DNA from: Beijerinckiaceae bacterium
GTDB taxonomy: Bacteria; Pseudomonadota; Alphaproteobacteria; Rhizobiales; Beijerinckiaceae
Length of the DNA: 36,573 bases
Assembly: GCA_947474545.1 (NCBI GenBank)
Contig: CANJJI010000029.1
Span: 1 to 36,573, forward strand
Direction of reading: 5' to 3'
Below are positions 15,883-36,148 of this stretch, piece by piece (position 1 is the first letter of the stretch; the number at the start of each line of letters is the position of its first letter). The notes under the pieces were generated by a model. The model did not search any database. It was given only the letters and a program-made list of their open reading frames with translations, and was not told the origin of the DNA. Position numbers and translations under genes: made by a program.

Positions 15883-17679
15883 ATGAGCAACCACCATTCT
15901 CCGGGTTTTGACGACCAGCTGCTGCGCCATGGTGCCTCTCGCGGCCGCTTCGCTGGCAGCGAACATCCAGGTGCGCCGGCTGTACGGATTCTCCGGCTGC
16001 TGGCCGGTATATTTCGTACCCCCGCAAGATTTGCCACAGCCGGGCTTATTTTGGCAGCTGGTTGCATCACCGTCGGCGAAGTCTTTGTCGTGCTTCGCCT
16101 GTCCAGCTGGAATGCAGATTTTTTCAATCTCCTGGAAAAGAAAGCGGTTGAAGGCCTCATCACACAGATCTGGATTTTTCTCGCCATCGTTGTCACCATG
16201 ATGTGCCTGCAGGGTGGCAGTCTGGAAACCAAGATGCGGCTTCAAATGAGGCTGCGCACCTGGTTGACACGTGTGGTCCGCGACGCCTGGATGGCGGACG
16301 GTCGTCACTACAGATTGCGCTATATGAGCGGTGAACATGCCAACGAAGAAGGCCGCCTCACCGATGACATCCGTGTCAGCTGCGAAATGGTTGTCGAATT
16401 TGGCGTGTCCCTGCTTTATTCATTGACGCAGATCGTGCTGTTTTCCAGCGTGCTCTGGCTCAATTCCGGGCCGCTGACGATTTCGGCCGCCGGTGCGTCG
16501 CTGACGATACCCGGACACATGTTCTGGGTGGCGATCCTTTATGCCATCGCGGGCGCTATCATCACCATACTGATCGGCCACCCGCTTGTACGGGCGACCG
16601 ACAAGCGGCAAACCGCTGAGGCCGATTATCGTGCGCGTCTTGTGATTTCCATCAACCATTCCCAGACGATCGCACTGAGCGGCGCAGAATCCGGCGAACG
16701 CCGAAGGCTCGGGGCAGCGTTTAATCGCATCCTCGACGCCTGGCGGATCCAGAAAACGTCTTTCCGGAACCTGATCTACTTTTCTGCCGGTTACGGAACG
16801 CTGACTGGTGTGCTGCCTTTGCTGGTATTGGCGCCGCGTTACTTTTCTGGCGACATCACGTTAGGCGCATTGATGCAGGTGACGATTGCCTTCGGGCAGG
16901 TTACGACTGCCCTATCGTGGCTTTCGGGAAATTACTCTGGCATCGCACAATGGGAGGCCTCTGCCTCTCGTGTGCTTGCGCTGCATGAAGCGGTTTCCGA
17001 TATTGATGATGAATTTGAGGGCGACAGCGCTGGCCGCTTCACGCGGGCGGCTATCAATGGTCCCAATCTGACCTTCCGCGATCTCAGCCTGTTTTCGCCT
17101 GCTGGTGAAATCCTCGTTCAGCGATTTTCCGCCGATCTCTGTCCTGGCGAGCGTGTGCTTGTTGAGGCCACGCCACATGCGGCTGAAGGCCTGTTTCGCG
17201 CGGTGGCCGGACTTTCGTTTCTTGGCGCAGGCCGGATAGAATTGCCGGAAGGAAGCGCGCCGCTCTTTATGGGTGAATATCCCTATTTGCCCGAGACAAC
17301 TTTGCTGGAAGCGCTCGTCGAGCAACAGCACCTGGACAAACTCGATAAAGATGATGTGGCGCGTGTGCTTGTCGACGTAGGGCTTGCGAAACTTGTGCCG
17401 TTGATCGAGCGAAGCGGAAAATGGGAACAGGAACTGGGCATAGAAGACCGGCAAAGGCTTGGTTTTGCTATCGCGATCCTGCGCAAACCAGGCTGGATCT
17501 TGATGCACGAAGCCACAAGCGCCCTAACGCAAGCGGCTGAAGACCAGATTGTTGGCATACTCGAACAGCGATTGCCCGATGCCGCAATCATCAGAATTAC
17601 CCATCGCGGTGTGACAGAGCGCGGATTTCACCGGCGGATATCGATATCGGATACTGCGGCCACAGGCATCGAATCCTGA
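15883..17679 (+). CDS. BacA/YddA-like ABC transporter with degenerate nucleotide-binding domain
   Basis: A 598-residue membrane protein: N-terminal ABC_membrane_2 (SbmA/BacA/YddA-type) domain, about residues 40-370, then a C-terminal domain in the position of an ABC ATPase, about 385-590. Homology to the YddA NBD is clear (GRIELPEG, YPYLPETTLLEAL, RQRLGFAIAILRKPGW, EATSAL, RITHR). However, the Walker A site reads VEATPHAAEG (427-436) with no GxxGxGK(S/T), the Walker B aspartate is replaced by H542 (LMHEATS), and the signature LSxGE is replaced by LGIED. E543 and the H-loop histidine remain. It is therefore probably not an ATPase. SbmA/BacA proteins import peptides without any NBD using the proton gradient, whereas BclA/YddA have a working NBD, so this protein could be intermediate. 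It diverges from the SMR gene. Family confident; energy coupling inferred. Confidence 0.87.
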   Translation: MSNHHSPGFDDQLLRHGASRGRFAGSEHPGAPAVRILRLLAGIFRTPARFATAGLILAAGCITVGEVFVVLRLSSWNADFFNLLEKKAVEGLITQIWIFLAIVVTMMCLQGGSLETKMRLQMRLRTWLTRVVRDAWMADGRHYRLRYMSGEHANEEGRLTDDIRVSCEMVVEFGVSLLYSLTQIVLFSSVLWLNSGPLTISAAGASLTIPGHMFWVAILYAIAGAIITILIGHPLVRATDKRQTAEADYRARLVISINHSQTIALSGAESGERRRLGAAFNRILDAWRIQKTSFRNLIYFSAGYGTLTGVLPLLVLAPRYFSGDITLGALMQVTIAFGQVTTALSWLSGNYSGIAQWEASASRVLALHEAVSDIDDEFEGDSAGRFTRAAINGPNLTFRDLSLFSPAGEILVQRFSADLCPGERVLVEATPHAAEGLFRAVAGLSFLGAGRIELPEGSAPLFMGEYPYLPETTLLEALVEQQHLDKLDKDDVARVLVDVGLAKLVPLIERSGKWEQELGIEDRQRLGFAIAILRKPGWILMHEATSALTQAAEDQIVGILEQRLPDAAIIRITHRGVTERGFHRRISISDTAATGIES

Positions 17680-24964: not shown

Positions 24965-26083
24965 TCACGCAGCCTTGGGCGGTAAGGTCTCAAGTTCCTG
25001 CTGGTAGGCGGTGTCCATTTTCGGCTGCAGATTGTGGCGGGCAAGTTCGGCTTCAAATTCGGCGCGGATCGCGGGATCTTCATCGGCGTAATCGATCTGG
25101 TCGCCGCCGAGGCGCTTGCTGATCCAAGCCTTTGGCACGCCCTGGCCGTTGCGGATGGAGACGACCTCGTGTTTGAAGGCGAGATAGCGCGCAGGCGTCG
25201 TGCCGGTGTTGAAATGCTGGTGGAACCACATGTTTGGCGGCACAATCATGGTGCCGACTTCCCAATCATAACGGCGGGGCTTTTCGCCTTCCGGCCACAT
25301 CAGCGAATAACCTTCGCCTGACAGAATTATCACATGGGCGCCGGGGCCGTGGGCGTGGCCCTTCTTGTAGGTGCCGATGGGGAATTGCGAGATGTGGCTG
25401 TTCATCGACCCTTTGGCCATGTTGAAACGGATATGGCCACCGCCTGCGCCGCGCTCTTTTGCTGTGATCAGCGGCAGGTTCACCGCATCGGGCACAAAGT
25501 TGGTGACGAGCTTGAAGCCGGTCTGCTCGCCCTTGGCGGAGAAGTAATCGGGCTCGCCATTAAAGCGCTGTTTGAAATCGTGCTGCGTGTTGAACACGAA
25601 ATCGGAGTCCTCATAGAGGTTCATGACCGGCGGGCCATCGGTGACGGCGACAAAGCGCGCGGGCTCCTGACCTGAGCCATTGAAGTGTTGGTGAATGGCG
25701 TTGAGCGGAATAGCGAATAATGCGCCAGCCTTCCATTCAAAGGTGATGCGTTGGCCTGCATCGTTCCAGACCGTGGTGGAGCCGCGTCCTGTCAGCACCA
25801 GGATCATTTCCTCAAACAGCTGGCGTTGTGGTGCGAGCTTGCCGCCCGGCGCGATTTCGCAGACATAGCAATCGTTCGAGGTGCGGGAGGCCTCATGATT
25901 GATATAGACCCCCTTGCCGCCGCGGCGCGCCCAGGGCTTCAGCTCGACTGTGCGCAGGTTCTGCACGTAATGGGCCGAGATGATGTCCAGCCCCTCACCG
26001 TGCACCCAGCGCAGATAGGGCGTTTCCTTTTCAGACGCGAATTTCTGGGCAAGGTCTTCGGAGACGAGGGCGTCTTTGGCCAT
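24965..26083 (-). CDS. Bicupin protein, paralogue of the one at 34913-36148
   Basis: A 372-residue protein with two cupin barrels. First domain: EEMILVLTGRGSTTVW near residue 96, then FEWKAGALFAIPLNAIHQHFN. Second domain: THE segment KKGHAHGPGAHVIILSGEGYSLMW near residue 246 (H-x-H ligand pair) and IVPPNMWFHQHFNTG (further histidines). The architecture recalls gentisate 1,2-dioxygenase-type bicupins, but I cannot assign that activity; family members often have unknown function. The first barrel has fewer histidines, so only the second may bind metal. The start at 26083 has GAGGA eight bases upstream; the frame is open to 26191 through a palindromic region that is not coding-like. It is downstream of the ABC ATPase on the same strand. 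Confidence 0.85.
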   Translation of the reverse strand: MAKDALVSEDLAQKFASEKETPYLRWVHGEGLDIISAHYVQNLRTVELKPWARRGGKGVYINHEASRTSNDCYVCEIAPGGKLAPQRQLFEEMILVLTGRGSTTVWNDAGQRITFEWKAGALFAIPLNAIHQHFNGSGQEPARFVAVTDGPPVMNLYEDSDFVFNTQHDFKQRFNGEPDYFSAKGEQTGFKLVTNFVPDAVNLPLITAKERGAGGGHIRFNMAKGSMNSHISQFPIGTYKKGHAHGPGAHVIILSGEGYSLMWPEGEKPRRYDWEVGTMIVPPNMWFHQHFNTGTTPARYLAFKHEVVSIRNGQGVPKAWISKRLGGDQIDYADEDPAIRAEFEAELARHNLQPKMDTAYQQELETLPPKAA

Positions 26084-26113
26084 GATAGTGTCCTCATTTA
26101 TTGGCTTTTCGGC

Positions 26114-26245
26114 TTCATCCCGGACGCCCAAGGCGATCCGGGATCGTTCTGTTACTAGACAGGTGTTGCCAATGATCCCGGATAAATGCAATAGGGCGTC
26201 GAAAGATGCCCGTCTCTCAACGGGCTATGGCATTTTCCAGGATGA
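26114..26245. repeat. Compound palindromic element of the CATCCCGGA family
   Basis: A first hairpin pairs ATCCCGGA (26117-26124) with TCCGGGAT (26137-26144), with inner CGCC/GGCG arms and one bulged A, as in the 9498-9595 element. A second, wider imperfect hairpin pairs ATCCCGGATAAATGC (from 26175) with GCATTTTCCAGGAT (to 26243). The element fills most of the 171-bp gap between the ABC ATPase stop (26255) and the bicupin start (26083), and ends against the ATPase stop. Confidence 0.68.
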
Positions 26246-32597: not shown

Positions 32598-34361
32598 TCA
32601 GTGTTTGTGATCATGCGGGTGTCCATGTCCACGATCATGTGAATGTCCGTGATCATGCGAATGTCCATGATGATGCGAATGACCATGGCCATGCGAATGG
32701 GAATGCCCCTGCCCTTCCCCTTCTTCGCGGTGATGGATGATCTCTTTTGATCGCGGTCCGCGCGGGTCTTCGCTGAACACCAGCGACTTGATGGTGACAG
32801 GCACTGTGTAGGAGGGCACACGCACCTTGCCGAGGTCGATGTAGTCGAAATCCATAAGCATCACGCCGTCAATGACGAGGATCTCGCTCATCACGCCGCA
32901 GTCTTCGCGCAGGATGCCACCCAGGGTCTGCGCCACGTCGCCGTCCAGCATGATGTAGAGCGGATCGTTGCGCGCAATCTTGTCAGCGAGGCCGAGTTTC
33001 ACGCCTTCGGCAAAGGCGCGCACACGCTCATAGGCGGGAATGCCGCGCCAGCGCAGAGCCAGAGCGAATTCGGCTTCGGGATAATCCATATCGAAGGCCA
33101 CGCGATGGCTCTTGATCGCCCTGGCCAGCGCCCCGCTGTCCACCTCTTCGCCATCGGCTTCAAACGGCGGCTGCATGACTTGCAGATTTCTGCGCGGCAG
33201 CAATTTGCCTGGTGTCGAAATGTAGCTCGTATTGCCCGAGAGTTGCACGGAATATTCGGATGCGCCAAGCGCGGTCGCGCGAATGCACTCGTGTGCAGGC
33301 AACAGCGGCCAGGGGAATTTGCCTGCGTCGATCTTGCGGCGGATGGCGTGTCCGAGGCGTTTGCCCATGTCGCCAAAATCTTGTTGTTCGCGATCATAAA
33401 CATATTCTGCAACACCGCCCGAAAACATCATCCCAGCGACATCGCTGAAGTCACTGATTGCATCGGTGAGATAAAGATGTTCCACATCATGCGGCATGGG
33501 CCGCGTGACCAAGGCATCGACGAGGGTATCAGCCATTTTATCAGCGACCTTGTCGAGATCCTCCGGGTTGATGACATCGCCAAGTTTCCAATCAAAGCCA
33601 GCGCGGCGGGCGTGCGTGCGTCCTGCGGGGTCTAGCCGGACAATCCTGCCGTTCTCTGTGACCTGCAGACGGCCGCCGATATGCACGGCTGCTGTTGTGA
33701 TGACTTTGCCGCCTTCCACCAGACCGAGCTTTGTGGTCCCGCCGCCGATGTCGATATTGAGCACGCGCTTGCCCAGATCCATCGAAGCCTTCGCGGCGCC
33801 CGAACCATAGGCCGCCAGCATGCTCTCCATGTGATGGCCTGCTGTGGCGCAAACGAGGTCGCCCGATTGCTCTGACAACATGGCGGAGATCGCCTGGGCA
33901 TTTTCGCGCCGCAGCGCTTCGCCTGTCAGGATCACTGCGCCGGTGTCCACGTCCGCGCGATTTATGCCGCCCTTCTCGTAGGCTTCTGCAATGATGAGTT
34001 TCAGTTTTTCATCATCAATGCGGGTTTCGCTGGCATAGGGCGTCAGCGCGACAGGCGAGAGATAAAGCTGTTCGCGCGACACGACATAATAACGGCTGGT
34101 CAATTCCTCCGCGAGGCGGCGCAGGTGGATGCGCGAGAAAATCACTTGCGTGCCGGACGAGCCAATGTCGATGCCGACGCTGGTCAGATGCACATTGTCC
34201 TGGATCCAGAGCGGATTGTCCTCCAGCGGGCCATCAGATTCATATTCGTCGTGATCATGGTCTTCATCGCCGCCATGCTGGTGGAACACATCGCCCATGG
34301 TGTGGTCGGTGATGGTGTGGCCCCCTGCGGGAAATCCGTCGTCTTTCTTGTCGCCAGCCAT
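32598..34361 (-). CDS. eutA: EutA-like ethanolamine ammonia-lyase reactivating factor with histidine-rich ends
   Basis: A 587-residue ASKHA-fold protein. The EutA core contains SVGIDIGSSGTQVIFSR (first phosphate motif, about residues 61-77) and VLNIDIGGGTTKLGLVEGG (second, about 200-218). EutA normally reactivates B12-dependent ethanolamine ammonia-lyase by releasing damaged cobalamin in an ATP-dependent way. It is about 120 residues longer than the enterobacterial protein: an N-terminal segment with H15, H20, H27, H29, H35 and H37, and a C-terminal tail of 38 residues (550-587) with 18 histidines. Such tails bind Ni, Co or Zn. No eutB/eutC, microcompartment or cobalamin gene is in the window, so its target may be different. 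The start at 34361 has AGGA seven bases upstream. Confidence 0.85.
   Translation of the reverse strand: MAGDKKDDGFPAGGHTITDHTMGDVFHQHGGDEDHDHDEYESDGPLEDNPLWIQDNVHLTSVGIDIGSSGTQVIFSRIHLRRLAEELTSRYYVVSREQLYLSPVALTPYASETRIDDEKLKLIIAEAYEKGGINRADVDTGAVILTGEALRRENAQAISAMLSEQSGDLVCATAGHHMESMLAAYGSGAAKASMDLGKRVLNIDIGGGTTKLGLVEGGKVITTAAVHIGGRLQVTENGRIVRLDPAGRTHARRAGFDWKLGDVINPEDLDKVADKMADTLVDALVTRPMPHDVEHLYLTDAISDFSDVAGMMFSGGVAEYVYDREQQDFGDMGKRLGHAIRRKIDAGKFPWPLLPAHECIRATALGASEYSVQLSGNTSYISTPGKLLPRRNLQVMQPPFEADGEEVDSGALARAIKSHRVAFDMDYPEAEFALALRWRGIPAYERVRAFAEGVKLGLADKIARNDPLYIMLDGDVAQTLGGILREDCGVMSEILVIDGVMLMDFDYIDLGKVRVPSYTVPVTIKSLVFSEDPRGPRSKEIIHHREEGEGQGHSHSHGHGHSHHHGHSHDHGHSHDRGHGHPHDHKH
32601..32714 (-). 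repeat. Tandem low-complexity repeat encoding the His-rich tail of the EutA-like protein
   Basis: Imperfect direct repeats built on CATGNNCATGNN-type units encode alternating H-S-H-D-H-G residues (18 His in 38 codons). The array is in frame with the gene and its units vary in length, so it is a coding repeat that can expand or contract by slippage and not a CRISPR array. Confidence 0.85.
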
Positions 34362-34750: not shown

Positions 34751-34912
34751 GGGGGGCTTTCGTTTCAGACCGGCATTCCGGAAATATAGTAGTGGCGATC
34801 AGCCTGCAGCCCAAGCTGTATTCCCGGCGCTTAAAGTTGACACGTCCCACGGTTTGCCTGAATACCGCAGCAGCGCCGAGCAGGCGGCTTGAGACATTTC
34901 CGGGAGACGAAC

Positions 34913-36148
34913 ATGCCGCATGACGACAAGGGTGGAGTACACTGGCACGAGCCGGGCGGAATGAAAAAAGCCGGTTTCGGCGAGTTCAAAAAGCAGCCGA
35001 CGCCCTATGACGCTTTCATGGAATCAGAAGGCGTGCCTGTTTTCCGCGACATCGGCATTTCCAGCGTCGCCAACCTTCCCCTGCACAATTGGAAGCGCAA
35101 GGGCGGCAAGGGCCATTACATCCAGCTGTTCGGCACCGAGACCAAATGGGGCTGCTTTGTCGTTGAAGTGCCGCCGGGCGGCGCGCTCAACCCGGAAAAG
35201 CACATGTACGAGGAAATCTACCTCGTCGTGGAGGGACGCGGCACGACAGAAGTCTGGCAGGAAGGCGACAGCAAGAAGCACGTGTTCGAATGGCAGAAGG
35301 GCTCGATTTTCTCGATCCCCATGAACGCCTGGTTCCGCATCGTCAACGCCACGTCGGGCGGCGCACTGCTGCTGGCCGGCACGACGGCGCCGAATGTCAT
35401 GAACATGATCAACAATGTTGACGCTGTGTTCAACAATCCCTTCGTTTTCCGCGACCGTTTTTCCGGCGCTGACGATTTCTTCAAGCCGAAGGACGACATC
35501 GAGCCCGATCCGGTGCGCGGCCTTGCCATGCGCCGCACGAATTTCATCCCCGATGTGGTGAATTGCGATCTTCCGCTGGATAACCGGCGTTCGGTCGGCT
35601 GGCGGCGCGTGGAGCCGTTCATGACCAACAACCAGTTTTATTACTGGATTGGCCAGCACGAACGCGGCCGCTATTCCAAGGCCCATGCCCATACCTCCGC
35701 CGCTGTGCTGATCTGCCTGAAGGGGGGAGGCTACACCTATTCCTGGCCGGAGCGTCTGGGCCCGACACCCTGGCTCGACGGCAAGGAAAACGAAGTGCGG
35801 CGGCTCGATTACGGCCCGTTCGGCATGGTGACGGCAGCGCCCGGCGGCGACCGCTGGTATCACCAGCATTTCTCTGCTTCCAGCGACGACTTCCGCCTCA
35901 CCGCCTGGTTTGGCCCGCATAACCCCGGCCGCGACCCCGGCGCGCCCGGCCAGAAACACACCGATTACACCGCTATCGATCTCGACAAGGGCGGCACCGC
36001 CATCCCCTACTGGATGGAAGACCCGTATCTGCGCCGCGAATACGAACAAACCCTCGCCCGCAACAACGTCGAAAGCCGCATGGACCCGGCCTGGTTCGTG
36101 AAGCCGAATGATGCAGGCGGCGACGCCAAGCGCGATAGCGTGGTGTAA
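34913..36148 (+). CDS. Bicupin protein, paralogue of the one at 24965-26083
   Basis: A 411-residue two-cupin protein. First domain: EEIYLVVEGRGTTEVW near residue 101, then FEWQKGSIFSIPMNAWFRIVN. Second domain: RYSKAHAHTSAAVLICLKGGGY near residue 260 (H-x-H pair) and GGDRWYHQHFSASSDD (further His). The order and spacing match the gene at 24965-26083, including the internal NxMN...VFN...F..RF.G..D(Y/F)F segment, so they are ancient paralogues. Start at 34913 has GGGAG seven bases upstream; the frame is open from 34889. Function unknown: an aromatic-ring dioxygenase or isomerase is possible but not shown. The gene is transcribed alone and ends before a strong palindrome. Confidence 0.85.
   Translation: MPHDDKGGVHWHEPGGMKKAGFGEFKKQPTPYDAFMESEGVPVFRDIGISSVANLPLHNWKRKGGKGHYIQLFGTETKWGCFVVEVPPGGALNPEKHMYEEIYLVVEGRGTTEVWQEGDSKKHVFEWQKGSIFSIPMNAWFRIVNATSGGALLLAGTTAPNVMNMINNVDAVFNNPFVFRDRFSGADDFFKPKDDIEPDPVRGLAMRRTNFIPDVVNCDLPLDNRRSVGWRRVEPFMTNNQFYYWIGQHERGRYSKAHAHTSAAVLICLKGGGYTYSWPERLGPTPWLDGKENEVRRLDYGPFGMVTAAPGGDRWYHQHFSASSDDFRLTAWFGPHNPGRDPGAPGQKHTDYTAIDLDKGGTAIPYWMEDPYLRREYEQTLARNNVESRMDPAWFVKPNDAGGDAKRDSVV

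Follow-up and report, generated by a model that had tools for sequence, protein, structure and literature searches.

A clade of YddA/BclA-type transporters that has lost the ATP site of its nucleotide-binding domain and kept the domain

Introduction

The closest described relatives of the transporter analysed here are YddA of Escherichia coli and the rhizobial BclA. They share its domain order, the family of its transmembrane domain (TMD) and the fold of its nucleotide-binding domain (NBD), and the best intact rows are ~30-34% identical. YddA and BclA keep the Walker A lysine and most of the other ATP-site motifs, whereas the clade described below carries a deletion in Walker A. For BclA, transport is described as requiring ATP hydrolysis (PMC12003926).

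E. coli SbmA and S. meliloti BacA have a related TMD and likewise have no usable ATPase. As described in PMC13316013 (2026), SbmA lacks the NBD and the coupling helices, both of which are lost in SLiPTs, and carries a glutamate ladder (E193, E203, E269, E276, E287 and E378); YddA is without equivalents of E203 and E287. The same paper speculates that SbmA derives from a YddA-like TMD separated from its NBD. In contrast, the present clade has an NBD and only an incomplete ladder. Rv1819c of Mycobacterium tuberculosis, given there as an ABC cobalamin transporter (PMC13316013), resembles our model in fold; its P-loop lysine is present, unlike that of the protein studied here.

MsbA provides a laboratory counterpart. 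According to PMC4979069, NBD-less MsbA can transport on a proton gradient, and it effluxed ethidium, whereas the delta-K382 form, which lacks the Walker A lysine but keeps its NBD, gave no ethidium efflux. The delta-K382 lesion is of the same kind as that of the present clade, but it was made in the laboratory in another ABC family, whereas the lesion reported here is natural and kept across a clade.

A literature search, with subscription journals mostly outside its coverage, found nothing on the clade with a dead NBD that we describe here. The starting point was a gene in a 36,573-nucleotide stretch of Beijerinckiaceae DNA (contig CANJJI010000029.1), referred to in full as the window. The initial annotation of the window had read this gene as an ABC fusion with an apparently dead ATPase domain and as a possible missing link to BacA.

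Results

The gene occupies 15883..17679 on the forward strand, as do all its features given below, and runs uninterrupted from an ATG at 15883 to a stop codon at 17677-17679, encoding 598 aa. The start codon is plausible, since three orthologues (L042, L037 and L038) have their initial methionine in the same alignment column. Pfam identifies the TMD (about residues 48-372; 16024..16998) as ABC_membrane_2 with 114.4 bits and as SbmA_BacA (PF05992) with 71.9 bits against a cut-off of 24. PF05992 also matches 17 of the 18 rows of our family alignment at E 0.01, the alignment including the NBD-only fragment L040. Pfam finds no ABC_tran domain in the window protein at E 0.01 and finds one in 3 of the 18 family members. 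NCBIfam and PDB searches align the C-terminal third to ABC NBDs, indicating a diverged NBD and no other type of domain. The TMD and NBD are thus fused in one chain, with the TMD inside the YddA/BclA family by Pfam, tree and AlphaFold2.

The AlphaFold2 model, built from an input of 20 sequences (the window protein and proteins of related loci), has a pLDDT of 80.1, a pTM of 0.71 and the fold of a type IV ABC half-transporter, with TMD helices and a pseudo-NBD (about residues 388-590; 17044..17652) predicted to adopt an ABC ATPase fold by AlphaFold2, Foldseek and VIA. A strand at residues 424-428 is followed by a helix at 431-441, leaving a short P-loop. Foldseek ranks Rv1819c first for the model (E 3.3e-24), and phmmer gives it as the best match of the protein in the PDB. 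In VIA, Rv1819c (6tqe) reaches Z 25.6 across 557 residues, with rmsd 3.6 and 22% identity; PCAT1 (8vpa), at Z 26.3 across 496 residues, ties with it, as do numerous further type IV ABC transporters. SbmA (9g3g) scores Z 23.5 over 307 residues of the model.

The gene is flanked on one side by a divergent SMR efflux gene and on the other by a set encoding a Rieske oxygenase, a TctC-like protein, an alcohol dehydrogenase and an FAD monooxygenase. The window also holds several oxidoreductase genes, two Cupin_2 ORFs of ~400 aa (24965-26191 and 34889-36148) and an EutA-like ORF at 32598-34361 (Pfam EutA, 388 bits), with no other ethanolamine genes among the scanned window ORFs.

Alignment to intact relatives locates the damage. 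The Walker A remnant VEATPHAAEG (residues 427-436; 17161..17190) has no glycine or lysine at the P-loop positions and is one residue shorter than its intact counterparts, the deletion falling at the lysine position. The Q-loop glutamine is Glu465 (17275..17277), the signature remnant reads LGIEDRQ (residues 518-524; 17434..17454), the Walker B aspartate is His542 (17506..17508) and the D-loop aspartate is Thr549. The absence of the Walker A glycines and lysine, the histidine at Walker B and the broken signature had all been claimed in the initial annotation and are borne out here; it did not mention that Glu543, which follows Walker B, and the H-loop His574 are retained. Its view that the intact frame speaks against simple decay also holds, given the open frame, the clade-wide deletion and the low dN/dS of the NBD (below). 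Two of the checks that it suggested agree with it: collected homologues share the Walker A/B losses as a clade, and structure prediction of the C-terminal domain gives an ABC ATPase fold.

The one-residue Walker A deletion is present in 29 of 29 aligned full-length dead members relative to intact relatives, and no full-length row outside this clade is without the Walker A lysine. Because rows were sorted into dead and intact by that lysine itself, its count (0/29 against 90/90) is true by definition; what can test the distinction is the common deletion, the gap in scores, the tree of the TMD and the remaining motifs. Retention in dead against intact rows was 3/29 against 90/90 for the Walker A column of G434, 7/29 against 82/90 for the Q-loop glutamine, 9/29 against 83/90 for the signature serine, 3/29 against 82/90 for the signature glycine, 1/29 against 86/90 for the Walker B aspartate, 12/29 against 81/90 for the following glutamate and 12/29 against 72/90 for the H-loop histidine. 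The Walker A lysine, Walker B aspartate and signature glycine are jointly missing in 26 of 29 dead members. These rows contain many near-copies (summed weights of 14 in the dead set and 44 in the intact one) and remain after removal of duplicates (L002-L005, L037, L071-L080, L115, L128, L129, L144) and fragments (L095, L039, L056, and L040, whose frame is below the length limit).

Median retention was 0.14 for 12 ATP-site columns and 0.83 for 50 other conserved NBD columns. The difference (Mann-Whitney p 1.7e-6, Fisher p 1.5e-6) is only a guide, as the columns share descent and the ATP-site list was chosen by us from the known motifs, with the lysine column included and D549 and G429 placed among the others. 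Together, the same deletion in every relative of the clade and the concentration of losses in ATP-site columns show that the loss goes beyond chance: the ATP-site lesion of the window NBD is confirmed as real and clade-wide. A private mutation or sequencing error was rejected on the ground of the same deletion in all clade members.

The Walker B aspartate position reads H, E, Q, Y or D depending on lineage, and this variability resembles that of a disused site. Likewise, the former P-loop varies across the clade, with an EATPQAA-type sequence nearly constant within the window-type members. Newly conserved NBD residues are few (F398, R399, G527, I539). L140, whose genome belongs to a class other than that of the window, retains the Q-loop glutamine, signature glycine, Walker B aspartate and following glutamate, suggesting that the lysine deletion probably came earliest and that the other motifs eroded later, lineage by lineage. 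We also considered a displaced Walker lysine in a shifted P-loop and rejected it; a lysine or arginine lies two columns downstream in some members, e.g. Methylobacter L046/L047, and is absent in the window protein and in other members.

The dead NBD is under purifying selection, somewhat weaker than that on a live NBD. Its dN/dS is below 1 in all dead pairs with a value (10 of 12 pairs, which share members; one of the other two is TMD-only and one saturated), ranging from 0.095, for the window against L040, to 0.49; seven intact pairs give 0.057-0.243. For the TMD the ranges are 0.08-0.41 in dead and 0.03-0.30 in intact pairs. Decay of the family as a whole was rejected, dN/dS being well below 1.

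Relatives were gathered from 101 genomes, genome contigs and plasmids, with 4 of the 12 best Azospirillum plasmid matches fetched; those with the same lesion came at ~33-89% identity. We ran an 18-member profile on 385 genomes of the window's class, 398 of its phylum and 321 of the class of genome G496, all drawn as samples. Among fetched full-length matches bearing an NBD, all those at 677 bits or more are without the Walker A lysine and all those at 652 bits or less have it. Consistent with this gap, the 321-genome search gave two further matches without the lysine at 749-761 bits and one with it at 558 bits. Motifs were read in fetched loci, and the score gap was relied on for the others. 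On this basis the dead clade occurs in 10 of 385 class genomes, in 2 of 398 phylum genomes, both also in the first draw, and in 2 of 321 genomes of G496's class among the matches listed (E < 1e-165). At least 5 of 51 genomes of the window's genus have the gene (G000, G003, G007, G019, G024).

Among the named carriers are Azospirillum, Elioraea, Methylobacter and Desulfurivibrio, besides other MAGs. Isolates are represented by Azospirillum brasilense Sp7, Azospirillum sp. B510 and Elioraea tepidiphila DSM 17972, and the dead state appears in Azospirillum plasmid records, three of four being described as complete sequences. The dead-NBD transporter is a patchy accessory gene. In the closest relative of the window protein, L039/L040 from a MAG of Rhizobium sp. 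Q54, the gene is interrupted: its 5' part contains stop codons and a shift of frame, and it is also split by a contig break. Either real decay or an assembly fault may be the cause.

The initial annotation had proposed a BacA-like proton-driven importer linking the two families. A tree of the TMD only (57 rows, 333 columns, LG+C20+F+G4 PMSF), in which 22 intact rows represent the 90 after identity thinning (13 were picked manually), does not place SbmA/BacA with the dead clade. The 29 dead rows form one clade with support of 99/93, recovered in 100% of 200 bootstrap trees, whose neighbour is the intact L082. A long branch of its own unites SbmA, BacA and two relatives; it sits next to E. coli YddA, a join with weak support (80/46). 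Constraining the dead clade and SbmA/BacA together was rejected (p-AU 0.0015), so the missing link to BacA is not supported and a direct evolutionary link was discarded. Since long branches are in play, we regard the separation of SbmA/BacA from the dead clade in this phylogeny as strong but not final. The loss of ATP use here looks like an event separate from, and independent of, that in SbmA/BacA.

The glutamate ladder does not favour a BacA-like proton path either. Aligned to SbmA at ~20% identity, 29 of 30 dead rows (L144 still being included in this set) have glutamate at the E193 equivalent, 30 of 30 at E276 and 18 of 30 at E378. These positions are common in intact relatives too, with 64/90, 90/90 and 33/90 respectively. 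At the equivalents of E203, E269 and E287, glutamate is found in 0 of 30 dead rows, and none is seen among the residues listed for intact relatives. The window protein has D161, E246 and Q356 at the positions of E193, E276 and E378. Among conserved residues of the dead clade no new acidic ladder is visible, so a route for ion coupling is not apparent.

The TM2-TM3 coupling-helix region (about residues 139-158; 16297..16356) has conserved sequence in the dead clade, whereas the four SbmA/BacA-type rows are gapped inside it. Part of this region is newly conserved (G140, G150, H152), as are the polar TM-helix residues T63, Y179 and Q290. The incomplete ladder and the retained coupling region thus give no sign of an SbmA-type proton path.

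A dead half-transporter might be paired with a live one. Among 20 genomes searched within the ABC_membrane_2 family, the dead gene is the sole match in eight (G363, G266, G139, G944, G1055 and those of L041, L043 and L047); completeness is given for the first five and is 98-100%. At least one further match occurs in the other 12, the window genome having four in all; the window genome has the intact relatives L031 and L032. In L037/L143 a paralogue with an intact Walker A lies upstream in tandem with the dead gene. The single-match genomes weaken a heterodimer within this TMD family as a general rule, which we rejected; with further matches in 12 genomes, that of the window among them, the window protein itself may form one. 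TAP, TM287/288 and BmrCD are heterodimeric exporters with natural NBDs altered in catalytic residues and paired with an intact partner. The dead clade differs from them in that 8 of 20 genomes hold no partner of the same TMD family and that 26 of 29 members have damage in both half-sites.

An unexpected feature of the clade is its glycosidase neighbours. A GH1 gene lies near 13 of 30 dead loci and a GH5 gene near 3 of 30, 15 of these 16 within ~112 bp of the dead gene and the remaining one 2.1 kb off. The 30 loci correspond to 29 places, since L039 and L040 belong to the same interrupted gene, of which each is one end, and the two tandem dead genes of L135 are counted once. We noticed this link first and tested it afterwards: the same six GH queries, taken from dead loci, found GH1/GH5 in 0 of 20 loci of high-scoring intact relatives, whose flanks were of unequal length. 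Family names come from Pfam, from the annotation of the record or from a genome search with PF00232, and GH1 reached the NCBIfam beta-glucosidase cut-off in both members tested. The class draw contains nine genomes with the pairing, and in seven of them no full-length GH1 other than the adjacent one is present. G1055 has a GH1 away from its dead gene, and no GH1 was found in G944.

There are two GH1 types, 44-48% identical and with different gene orders, plus a GH5 type, which points to repeated origins of the pairing. By eye, the GH1 and GH5 N-termini inspected have no obvious signal peptide. The alignment of the GH5 gene next to L041 is spread over two frames. From this neighbourhood, the cargo in the GH-linked branches is likely to be glucosides or glucan oligosaccharides.

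This reading does not reach as far as the window gene. No GH1/GH5 neighbour was found in the window's own subclade (8 of 30 loci) or in six further loci, an absence that weighs little where flanks are short (e.g. L046, 591 bp; L142, 600 bp; L145, 151 bp on one side). The window genome gave no match to GH1, and the window itself no GH1/GH5 gene. Nor did we find a constant neighbour in the window-type subclade, where blastp finds a TctC-like gene in three loci, with the Pfam name confined to the window copy, while OpgC and a luciferase-like gene each occur in a single locus.

Two further genes recur at GH1-linked loci. A protein of ~365 aa is encoded beside four such dead genes (L134:1868-2962, L135:7956-9053, L133:4014-5156, L137:5246-6349); it matches DUF4185 weakly (best E 0.0028, two of four members), with PDB sequence matches no better than E 0.14. 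A TPR-sulfotransferase gene lies near the GH1-linked pair at L136:10230-12362 (Pfam) and L138:10326-12431 (~80% identical, tblastn).

Discussion

We propose, with moderate confidence, that the dead clade consists of ATP-independent homodimeric carriers in which the pseudo-NBD serves as a scaffold, with glucoside cargo only in the GH-linked branches. The shared deletion and the single clade suggest that the NBD of a full-length YddA/BclA-type half-transporter (type IV, ABCD-like) became a pseudo-ATPase, most simply once, through deletion of the Walker A lysine; the remaining ATP motifs would have eroded afterwards by lineage. Sequence and model show that purifying selection preserves the NBD fold and the coupling region of the membrane domain. 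The homodimer would work by alternating access without ATP, with the NBD setting the cytoplasmic gate in a docking or structural role. A substrate gradient, or possibly an ion gradient, would drive transport. In the GH1/GH5-linked branches, glucosides or glucan oligosaccharides may be drawn inward by the cleaving hydrolase, which has no obvious signal peptide; it is the gene neighbourhood that points this way. The missing ethidium efflux of MsbA delta-K382 raises the prospect that a dead NBD may block transport instead of permitting it. A clade with a natural deletion of this kind must have got past the block or be without transport.

A bolder form of this proposal makes the whole clade facilitative or ion-coupled, with GH-linked branches for beta-glucosides or glucan oligosaccharides and the pseudo-NBD as an essential mechanical part, so that the clade would represent a second exit from ATP, independent of SbmA/BacA and halted halfway. 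We put this forward only tentatively and hold it doubtful.

The pseudo-NBD might instead be a sensor whose remodelled P-loop pocket binds another ligand, or a nucleotide without hydrolysis, and so gates the transporter; the SUR subunits of KATP channels offer an analogy. Purifying selection, a fold predicted to be whole, the retention of the Glu543 equivalent in 12 of 29 members and of the His574 equivalent likewise in 12, and the near-constant EATPQAA-like sequences of the window-type subclade would all suit such a role. However, the former P-loop is not conserved clade-wide, the Walker B position depends on lineage and newly conserved NBD residues are few, so we think a sensor unlikely. That transport was lost altogether, leaving a membrane-anchored scaffold or receptor with a TMD that no longer alternates, is quite unlikely. 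Here the TMD itself argues against the idea through its low dN/dS in dead pairs and its newly conserved polar residues (T63, Y179, Q290), and the tight linkage to hydrolase genes, seen at 16 of 30 loci, hints that the substrate is soluble; what speaks for it is that ATP use is gone and nothing obvious has taken over the energy coupling, together with the lack of ethidium efflux by the MsbA lysine deletion with its NBD in place (PMC4979069).

Pairing with an intact paralogue encoded elsewhere appears very unlikely to us. Intact L031 and L032 and four ABC_membrane_2 matches make it conceivable in the window genome, other matches exist in 12 of 20 genomes, and L037/L143 even place a Walker-A-intact paralogue in tandem; yet eight genomes hold no second ABC_membrane_2 match, and joint loss of the Walker A lysine, Walker B aspartate and signature glycine in 26 of 29 members would leave neither composite site whole. 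A BacA-like proton-driven importer standing between YddA/BclA and SbmA/BacA is highly improbable. It would fit the SbmA_BacA Pfam domain above cut-off, the well-kept E193 and E276 equivalents (29/30 and 30/30) and the proton-coupled transport by the MsbA membrane domain alone (PMC4979069), but joint grouping fails on the TMD tree, three ladder glutamates are missing throughout, the window has Asp161 and Gln356 at E193 and E378, and the best-kept positions are shared with intact relatives. A pseudogene or sequence error is extremely improbable: the interruption of the closest relative, L039/L040, is set against the frame of the window gene and those read in further full-length members, all of them open, against plasmid records of Azospirillum that show the dead state as well (three of four described as complete) and against dN/dS well below 1.

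An ATP-independent carrier with a retained NBD would bear on the route from ABC transporter to secondary carrier. The dead clade shows an alternative to SbmA in the same superfamily, with the ATP site lost and the NBD and coupling region kept. If the dead NBD is indeed kept as a mechanical part, the role of an NBD would exceed the burning of ATP, and the GH neighbours offer concrete candidate substrates.

Related losses are seen in other members of the superfamily. In three genomes of the window's genus, a TMD-only relative (L033/L170, at G000:C82:18328-19347; L171; L172) has frames of 384-435 aa that stop just past the membrane domain, and L033 groups with intact full-length relatives, away from SbmA/BacA. 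The pattern G....GK[ST] is found in none of the frames read of L170 and L172 and once in L171, in a frame that is possibly a chance one. This relative probably lost its NBD in yet another, independent event.

Erosion of the NBD seems to have happened repeatedly in this superfamily. Half-degenerate relatives (L037:3489-5183, which is L143:8634-10499; L020; L030) keep Walker A, have ED for DE at Walker B and have lost the Q-loop glutamine and the H-loop histidine, the L037/L143 copy being the one in tandem with a dead gene. Likewise, a branch comprising L064:1872-3692 (S. meliloti pSymB), L021, L026 and L014 has the P-loop lysine intact, a changed signature and no H-loop histidine; the S. meliloti gene adjoins queE/D/C.
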